DNA of 15,231 nucleotides from Nitrospinota bacterium (GTDB lineage Bacteria > Nitrospinota > Nitrospinia > UBA9942 > JAHJSF01), in NCBI GenBank assembly GCA_018830405.1, contig JAHJSF010000095.1:1-15231 (forward strand), in the 5' to 3' direction. Under the pieces are notes generated by a model that worked only from the letters and a program-made list of their open reading frames with translations, did no database searches and was not told the origin of the DNA. Position numbers and translations under genes: made by a program. Below, piece by piece: positions 312 to 9,131 of the stretch (position 1 is the first letter of the stretch; each line of letters opens with the position of its first letter).

Positions 312-437
312 ATACAGAGCGTCAGAATAAGGCAGACCGAGGCGCAACGAAAGAGAGGAGTGAGGCGTATTTTCAGCATACGCCGTAGCGACGAGCTGAG
401 GAGCAACAAAGGTACGCAAAATTATGACGCTCTGTAT
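312..437 (+). mobile_element. E1: short terminal-inverted-repeat (MITE-like) element
   Basis: The ends are perfect 13-bp inverted repeats, ATACAGAGCGTCA (312-324) and TGACGCTCTGTAT (425-437). The terminal TA could be a TA target duplication, as made by IS630/Tc1-mariner-type transposases. A central hairpin pairs GGCGTAT (364-370) with ATACGCC (378-384). Both arms match, in reverse orientation, the arms of a second element at 3616-3773; by eye the left arm differs at 8 of 56 positions. The two arms also contain similar purine-rich blocks (CGAGGCGCAACGAAAG and TGAGGAGCAACAAAGG). No protein is encoded. It ends 3 bp before the purH stop codon, on the far side of the gene. That it is mobile is inference. 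Confidence 0.65.
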
Positions 438-3584: not shown

Positions 3585-3615
3585 GATATTTCTCCCTGAT
3601 CTTTTATCTTTGGTT

Positions 3616-3773
3616 AGACAGAGCGACATAAATTTGTATACCTTTGTTTATCCTCGGCTCGTCGATATACAACCCCCTATCCCCCTTTGTTAAGGGGGAA
3701 TAAGGGGGTTGTATATCGTCTCACTCCTCGCCTTCGTCGCGCCTCGGTCTACTTTTTTCTGCCGCTCTGTATA
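3616..3773 (-). mobile_element. E2: second E-family element, with a G/C-run palindrome at its centre
   Basis: Read on the minus strand this matches E1: ends ATACAGAGCGGCA and TATGTCGCTCTGTCTA, with arms containing AGACCGAGGCGCGACGAA, GAGGAGTGAG and GACGAGCCGAGGA. Where E1 has a 7-bp hairpin, E2 carries a large palindrome, with CGATATACAACCCCC and its complement as arms and the G/C-run unit inside (3664-3717). The 47 nt at 3667-3713 are identical to 8982-9028 in element M1. The right terminus keeps a TA; the left is less clean. No protein is encoded. It separates yajQ from the HU gene and provides the false upstream ATG of yajQ. Confidence 0.65.
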
Positions 3774-4512: not shown

Positions 4513-5727
4513 TTGGTCAAGAAAAAAGGGGGAGGGAACAATATCAGCAAAGAGATGACGGATCGCCATATATTTAAAACCTACAATAGATATCCGGTAA
4601 CATTTGTTAGGGGAGAAGGGGTCTACCTTTGGGATGAAACCGGTAAGAGGTATATTGATTTTGTGGCCGGTTTGGCCGTTAATAATGTCGGGCATTGTCA
4701 TAAGGATGTTGTTAAGGCTATAAGCGACCAAGCCTCAAAACTGATTCATGTCTCCAATCTTTACTATACCCAACCCCAATCGGAACTTGCCCGTCTCATG
4801 ACTGCCTCATCCTTTGCCGATAGGGTCTTTTTCTGTAATAGTGGGGCCGAGGCCAACGAGGCGGCTATCAAGCTGGCCCGCCGTTATTCACGGGAGAGGT
4901 TTGGTGGGGCAAAACGTTATGAGATAATCACCATGCTCAATTCGTTTCATGGCCGGACAATGGCCACCATTACCGCCACGGGACAGAAAAAGATGCAGGA
5001 AGGATTCCAGCCTCTATTGGCCGGATTTAAACATATCCCCTTCAACGACCTTGAGGCCCTAAAAAAGAGTTTTAGCGAAAAGACCTGTGCCGTTATGATT
5101 GAGCCGATACAGGGGGAGGGGGGGGTAAATATCCCTGATGCCGGCTATCTTGAGGCGGTTGGTGAATTATGCCGCGAGAAGAGGGTTCTCCTAATATTTG
5201 ATGAGGTACAGACCGGCATGGGAAGGACAGGGAGGTTGTTCGCCCATGAGCACTACAATGTAAAACCGGATATAATGACCTTGGCCAAAGGGCTGGCCGG
5301 GGGGATGCCGATTGGGGCGATGTTGGCCAGAGAGGATATCGCCTCTTTCCTGCCTCCCGGGAGCCATGCCTCAACCTTTGGGGGTAATCCGGTAAGCGCT
5401 GCTGCAGGAATAGCCACCTTTAAGCTTATGAGCCGTTCACTCCTGTCAAACTGTAAATCGGTCGGCAAGTATATGATTAAAAGACTGAATACCCTCAAAA
5501 AGAGGTATAAGTTCATAAAGGATGTCAGGGGGGCGGGACTGATGGTTGCTATGGAGCTCGACTTTCCCGGGCGTGAGATAACGATGATGATGCTGGAAAA
5601 GGGGATATTGATTAACTGTACGGCGGAAAGGGTTCTCCGTTTTGTCCCCCCGCTGATGGTAGGGAAAAAGGAGGTTGATATAGTTGTTGACGCCCTTGAG
5701 GATATATTCTCCTCGGGGGAGTTGTAA
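4513..5727 (+). CDS. argD: Acetylornithine aminotransferase
   Basis: This PLP enzyme transfers an amino group from glutamate to N-acetylglutamate semialdehyde, giving N-acetylornithine; many homologues also serve in lysine synthesis. It is a class-III aminotransferase with TYNRYPVTFVRGEG near the start, the PLP-phosphate region NSGAEANEAAIK, FDEVQTGMGRTG with the PLP-binding Asp, and LAKGLAGGMPIGAM with the Schiff-base Lys (about residue 259). The start is ambiguous. I chose TTG 4513, with AGGAG seven bases upstream (404 residues). ATG 4492 lacks a ribosome site. ATG 4555 (MTDRHIFKTY) fits family alignments best but is poorly spaced from GGGGGAGGG. It is the first gene of an arg cluster; argF follows after 75 bp containing a palindromic repeat. 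A class-III relative such as ornithine aminotransferase is unlikely beside argF and argG. Confidence 0.92.
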   Translation: MVKKKGGGNNISKEMTDRHIFKTYNRYPVTFVRGEGVYLWDETGKRYIDFVAGLAVNNVGHCHKDVVKAISDQASKLIHVSNLYYTQPQSELARLMTASSFADRVFFCNSGAEANEAAIKLARRYSRERFGGAKRYEIITMLNSFHGRTMATITATGQKKMQEGFQPLLAGFKHIPFNDLEALKKSFSEKTCAVMIEPIQGEGGVNIPDAGYLEAVGELCREKRVLLIFDEVQTGMGRTGRLFAHEHYNVKPDIMTLAKGLAGGMPIGAMLAREDIASFLPPGSHASTFGGNPVSAAAGIATFKLMSRSLLSNCKSVGKYMIKRLNTLKKRYKFIKDVRGAGLMVAMELDFPGREITMMMLEKGILINCTAERVLRFVPPLMVGKKEVDIVVDALEDIFSSGEL

Positions 5728-5760
5728 TTCCCCCTTTGTCAAGGGGGATTAAGGGGGTTA
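5728..5760. repeat. G/C-run palindromic repeat in the argD-argF gap
   Basis: It begins at the base after the argD stop codon. CCCCCTT (5730-5736) pairs with AAGGGGG (5741-5747) around TGTC, and a second G5 run (5753-5757) follows. The 5' outer C-run is absent. Inside an operon such a hairpin could stop some transcripts or protect the argD 3' end; both are inference. Confidence 0.6.
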
Positions 5761-5802
5761 TATATAATCTCACGTAAATTTACATATTTTTAGAGCGATA
5801 AA

Positions 5803-8960: not shown

Positions 8961-9131
8961 TACGAAGTCGCATTCAAACGCATACAACCCCCTATCCCCC
9001 TTTGTTAAGGGGGAATAAGGGGGTTGTACGTCGCTTCCTCCTTGCCCTATAATCATTCCCTTCCTTACCCCTCCCCCACTTGCTGGGGGAGGCAGGAGGG
9101 GGGTTGTTATCATTTTGAAGGCAACTTCGTA
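8961..9131. mobile_element. M1: inverted-repeat element holding two G/C-run palindromes
   Basis: The left end TACGAAGTCGCATTCAAA and the reverse complement of the right end TACGAAGTTGCCTTCAAA differ at two of 18 bases; the similarity continues into ACAACCCCC, giving inverted repeats of about 32 bp. The terminal TA fits a TA target duplication. Inside are a G/C-run palindrome at 8982-9028, identical over 47 nt to the core of element E2, and a diverged one at about 9066-9107 (CTCCCCCA with TGGGGGAG). The element starts directly after the xerC TAA stop. Frames reading through it (PPYSPLTKGDRG-like peptides) are not genes. Confidence 0.7.

Follow-up and report, generated by a model that had tools for sequence, protein, structure and literature searches.

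The window, a stretch of 15,231 nucleotides from a contig of a Nitrospinota bacterium, carries at positions 287-436 a copy of a repeat that is very probably a non-autonomous MITE, which would be inserted at TA, with duplication of the TA, by a transposase supplied from elsewhere. Mobility of the element is deduced from genome comparison, and the copies form a new family of ERIC/RUP-like TA-inserting MITEs with unusual structural behaviour. Three orthologous empty sites were found, each with a single dinucleotide where the filled site reads TA-element-TA. For two of them, copies in L113 of genome G042 were compared with G082 (CCCCCTTT-TA-element-TA-AAAATC against GCCGCCTTT-TA-AAAAATT, and GGGATTC-TA-element-TA-AAATAG against GGGCTTC-CA-AAATCA); for the third, L224 of G083 was compared with G087 (CCCTTGT-TA-element-TA-ATATTTCAG against CCCTTGCC-TA-CTATTTCAG). 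The joined flanks without the element align at 82-86% identity; conservation of the flanks is no more than moderate, particularly on one side. One dinucleotide facing TA-element-TA at all three sites argues for a mobile non-autonomous element inserting at TA. TA flanks the left side in 57/65 and the right side in 60/65 members with the outer left end described below, and in 16/41 and 24/41, respectively, of the short-form copies, which come mostly from the window's own genome; the lower values are consistent with age but give weaker support.

The window's genome (G000; 1.42 Mb in 185 contigs) was searched by blastn with positions 300-450 as query, which gave 54 matching places, far more than expected by chance; roughly half were full length, and more than 20 full-length matches had E < 1e-20. 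A covariance model (R1) built from an alignment (A1) of 37 copies gave 43 matches in the same 1.42 Mb, and up to about 80 matches were obtained in one genome. The multi-copy, non-autonomous mobile element with TA ends proposed in the preliminary description is thus supported by further copies, empty sites and TA duplication; a lack of further copies and of empty sites had been named there as evidence to the contrary, and both were found.

The element is non-coding and intergenic, occurs in both orientations, and has a full form of about 150 bp and a short form of about 124 bp without the outer left end. In the window, the right end adjoins the stop codon of purH (441-443). On the plus strand, the copy consists of the left target-site copy TA (285-286, facing a single dinucleotide in empty orthologues), the outer left end (TACACAGCCACATAAATAGAACGGC, 287-311), a left hairpin arm (312-338) with a perfect 13-bp end followed by an imperfect helix (ATACAGAGCGTCA GAATAAGGCAGACC), a left purine-rich arm (339-363), a central hairpin GGCGTA-loop-TACGCC (364-384; pairs 53-58 with 68-73 of A1, 99% paired), a right purine-rich arm (388-410) that pairs with 339-363 by Watson-Crick pairs between tandem G.A mismatches, the right hairpin arm with the right end (GGTACGCAAAATTATGACGCTCTGTA, 411-436) and the right target-site copy TA (437-438). 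The perfect 13-bp inverted ends described earlier lie at 312-324 and 425-437 and were confirmed; 312-437 as a whole is a real element whose left boundary had been drawn about 25 bp short, so that the outer left end was missed. Ahead of that boundary, copies from other genomes carry a conserved segment of 25-27 bp (TATACACAGCGTCATAAATAAATGCGC); its window counterpart is TATACACAGCCACATAAATAGAACGGC at 285-311, the outer left end of the family, which is present in dozens of copies from other genomes and in most copies of G042 and its relatives (TATACACAGCGTCATAAGTAGAACAGC of L115 agrees with the window's outer left end in 23/27 letters). Once reverse-complemented, the right end is similar to the outer left end, and the two mirror each other (TACACAGCGTCATAA versus TACAGAGCGTCATAA); terminal inverted repeats are present, TACA(C/G)A(G/A)CGNCATAA being common to both. 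We infer that these two ends are the termini used in transposition. Another dispersed repeat, with the motifs GCGAGTTCTTTAGGCTCC...AACCAACCGTCGTTTC and AAAGCCGGAGGCTACCGC, adjoins several copies (L040 1950-2075, L039 1560-1640 and other flanks in G000).

The second window copy (3617-3771, minus strand, short form) was matched by the covariance model at 3616-3772 with 109 bits, has TA at 3615-3616 and 3772-3773, and lies upstream of yajQ; like most other G000 copies it lacks the outer left end. Its arms are complementary to those of the first copy over 56 nt at 86% and 53 nt at 83%, in agreement with the reversed copy at 3616-3773 with about 86% identity in one arm that had been reported. It had also been called diverged; the two copies do differ, mainly by exchange of the central hairpin for a separate, TA-flanked palindrome of 46 bp (TACAACCCCC...GGGGGTTGTA, 3668-3713, no strand assigned) and not by general divergence. 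The central hairpin is likewise replaced in at least four other G000 copies (L032, L035, L041 and L042) by all or part of TA-TACAACCCCC...GGGGGTTGTA-TA, with differing junctions, and other palindromes occupy the same central region in G042, G043 and G088. The C-rich palindrome is itself a TA-flanked repeat with many copies, present in the window also at 2022-2057, 5727-5763 and 8979-9029, and was found repeatedly within the element's central hairpin.

A genome-wide pattern scan detected the element in 'Deltaproteobacteria' NC_groundwater MAGs, a Nitrospirae MAG and a Hainich groundwater MAG. Matches to R1 were obtained in 29/41 relatives of G042 (1-75 each) and in 7/41 relatives of G040, most of the weaker matches among the latter belonging to a sister family and not to the element proper. 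Within the window's own phylum 2/77 genomes gave an R1 match, namely G000 and one with a weak match, and blastn in 40 relatives gave no match outside the own genome. Taken together, the element is patchily distributed among three bacterial lineages that are distant relatives of one another. With a copy in G042 the window copy shares 92.1% identity, and with the other G000 copies compared it shares 85.7% at most; the PurH protein of G000 is only about 57% identical to PurH of other hosts. The greater similarity of the window copy to another lineage's copies than to those compared in G000 suggests that the element was acquired horizontally, and repeatedly. Searches of viral contigs and of plasmid and phage collections gave no match to the element, nor did Rfam at gathering and relaxed thresholds, and a search of published text for the core sequence returned nothing relevant. 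The element is an abundant, unnamed repeat family of groundwater bacteria and might be misread as a structured RNA.

The fold was analysed on alignment A1. RNAalifold predicted one long hairpin in which both sides have changed with pairing kept in 19/28 pairs; with the structure fixed and one more pair included, two-sided changes were found in 20/29 pairs versus 8.8 in shuffles (12/17 pairs in helices 1 and 2, to which the arm at 312-338 belongs, and 6/6 pairs in helix 3, formed by the purine-rich arms). Paired cells amounted to 94.4% versus 86.3% in shuffled and 23-39% in slid alignments, cells with two-sided changes numbered 89 versus 32.5 in shuffles, and none of 500 shuffles reached any of the observed covariation values. 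The purine-rich repeated blocks of the arms, already pointed out in the preliminary description, are confirmed and make up the conserved core, a succession of isolated Watson-Crick pairs with tandem G.A steps between them (C-GA-G-GA-G-U versus A-C-GA-C-GA-G). The four core pairs vary (C-G/T-A/T-G; G-C/A-T/G-T; G-C/A-T/G-T; T-A/T-G/C-G) in a scan that required the GA steps, so that GA conservation is not independently counted there. Among the core cells in one-sided states, 46 show G.T on the purine strand, compared with 5 that show A.C (binomial p = 2e-9, uncorrected for shared ancestry). This suggests that the purine-rich strand is the folding strand, although strand-biased mutation could also account for it; the tandem-G.A core may be kept because the folded purine strand, as ssDNA or RNA, helps the element to persist or move.

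In 16/110 full-length copies the same change was found in both arms, at stem positions 3-10. Several of these copies (L113 minus strand, L121, L126 and L216) have a core that differs by 0-1 bases from that of a relative with unchanged arms; in the L113 minus-strand copy, with the arms ATGCAGAG/CTCTGCAT, the core is identical to that of L111. The outer left end does not follow the concerted arm changes in the copies inspected, and one-sided arm changes amounted to 54 events. Two independent matching mutations are very unlikely in such young copies, which favours arm-to-arm templating as the simplest account, and template switching has been documented to change both arms of a hairpin in concert (PMC8794818). 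Complementarity would then be kept mainly by one arm templating the other, by template switching or snap-back synthesis, and part of the covariation would be mutational rather than selected. That each copy is instead selected for a functional stem, without templated correction, is an unlikely explanation of the concerted arms: tandem G.A positions that remain without Watson-Crick pairing speak for it, as simple correction would erase them, whereas the youth of the copies just described and the documented action of template switching speak against it. The same G.A steps, conserved although templated correction would remove them, argue that the core is under selection in addition to templating.

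Weak R1 matches in G043, G040 and G044 proved to be different repeats (sister families, loci L270-L283). They keep GAGGAATGAGGCGTAC-loop-GTACGCCGCAGTGACGA and the purine arms, and have unrelated outer stems (ACAGGTTGCT..AAAAAG, AGACGGCTTTGTAAAAAG and CAGGCTGCTCAAAAAGCCCC), each with its own complement; in the G043 family a 30-nt left extension resembles its own right end, a layout as in the element. In textbook MITEs the transposase-bound ends are conserved and the middle is free; the sister families, with the core fold kept and the ends changing in step with one another, are the reverse of this usual pattern. The sister families are abundant in the lineages of G043, G040 and G044 and apparently unnamed. 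A single distant relative was seen in G012, a genome of the window genome's class (L087 1501-1627), with an outer stem (ATAGATTTTCAGATAATAAATTACAC / GTGTAATTTGTTATATGGAAATCTAT) that is wholly different yet complementary.

The default assumption for the enzyme is a DDE transposase acting on TA-terminated ends, and the novel alternative is a structure-recognising enzyme. The preliminary description had pointed to a passenger of IS630/Tc1-mariner elements; this reading, in which the hairpin would be a mere by-product of long terminal inverted repeats, we consider rather unlikely. IS630/Tc1-mariner elements characteristically duplicate a TA target and end in TA-terminal inverted repeats, the TA duplication is found here, and RUP is tied to IS630-Spn1 in such a way (PMC2229807). 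However, DDE_3 (PF13358, IS630-type) was detected in only 1/12 host genomes and was absent from 11/12, which leaves the passenger unsupported and does not refute it, since draft genomes (MAGs) often lose complete insertion sequences in binning and an autonomous partner could be missed. The proposed transposase with matching ends was looked for in ten draft genomes by end-pattern search (control with the reversed pattern, 0 matches); no gene between matching ends and no autonomous copy was found, and the isolated ends examined were all truncated or palindrome-interrupted copies. A partner of this kind is not strictly needed for a bacterial MITE, ERIC likewise having none known. Also against the passenger, changes in the right end are matched in the inner left arm and not in the outer left end, and DDE recognition would normally keep the ends constant whereas those of the sister families differ, which counts against a purely DDE-moved MITE. 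Differing ends could be accommodated if the mobile repeats made up a superfamily recognised by its shape, a reading that is itself doubtful: the conserved part would be the purine-rich strand in its folded state, including the tandem-G.A core, the ends would be free as long as they are complementary and would be kept so by arm-to-arm templating, and the enzyme would act on the folded strand, as ssDNA or RNA, and insert at TA.

Movement as single-stranded DNA by a Y1 (HUH) transposase, comparable to that of REP/REPIN by RAYTs and of IS200/IS605 ends by TnpA, is decidedly improbable. On this view, the enzyme would act on the folded purine strand and cleave at TA; the strand-specific covarying fold, the excess of G.T over A.C states, the presence of Y1 genes in 12/16 genomes tested and the fact that target-adjacent cleavage would leave flanks resembling a TA duplication are in its favour. 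The element was nevertheless found beside 0/30 Y1 loci (flanks of about 1.5 kb), G082 and G044 contain many copies without a Y1 gene, G097 contains five Y1 genes without the element, the RAYT of G000 has an unrelated repeat of its own, GGGGTCAGGTCTTGCAATG, on either side, and orientation relative to local GC skew is unbiased (60 versus 56, p = 0.57). Inverted GGGGTCAGGTCTTGCAATG repeats flank this RAYT-type Y1 gene on L248 (G000:C26) at 1363-1451 and 2302-2342 and constitute with it a separate REP-like system of G000. A cis-regulatory or trans-acting structured RNA (terminator, mRNA-stability element or riboswitch) in place of a mobile element is more improbable still, even with strong covariation, retention of the non-canonical tandem G.A core in different lineages and stop codons adjoining many copies. 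Orientation to genes is not fixed, neither in G000 (upstream neighbour 23 same/11 opposite, downstream 16/19) nor in G042 (upstream 12/11, downstream 10/11), and the empty orthologous sites, the number of matches in a single genome and the negative Rfam search speak against it as well. The structured RNA family once considered for this locus is therefore right as to one strongly covarying strand, and finds no backing in Rfam or in an orientation bias towards genes. The MITE reading accordingly remains the preferred one, and the element offers a natural system in which to test structure-guided transposition and the maintenance of hairpins by template switching.

Among known systems, the Chunjie MITE is hosted by Geobacter uraniireducens, a bacterium traditionally placed in the Deltaproteobacteria. 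It shares with the element the MITE character and many intergenic copies and is set apart by its length of 178-235 bp (PMC10969869), the element measuring about 150 and 124 bp. REP/REPIN sequences with RAYT transposases are fold-back repeats with a strand-specific hairpin, as is the element (PMC3733652), which is much longer, has TA flanks, is not adjacent to RAYT genes and shows no GC-skew bias. The 107-bp RUP of Streptococcus pneumoniae is, like the element, non-autonomous and intergenic with a TA target (PMC2229807); RUP ends match IS630-Spn1, whereas such a partner of the element was not found in the genomes searched. ERIC (IRU, RU-1) of enterobacteria is an imperfect palindrome of about 127 bp with TA ends and TA duplication, occupies intergenic sites, its copies numbering from the tens to the hundreds, is expected to fold into a long stem-loop when transcribed, and has no known transposase either (PMC2229807, PMC10969869). 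Size, imperfect palindrome, TA ends and duplication, intergenic location and long stem-loop are common to both; the element gave no blastn match at E<=1 in 5,426 genomes of the ERIC carrier E. coli, occurs in other bacterial lineages, and adds the outer left end, the tandem-G.A core and sister families whose ends are unrelated.
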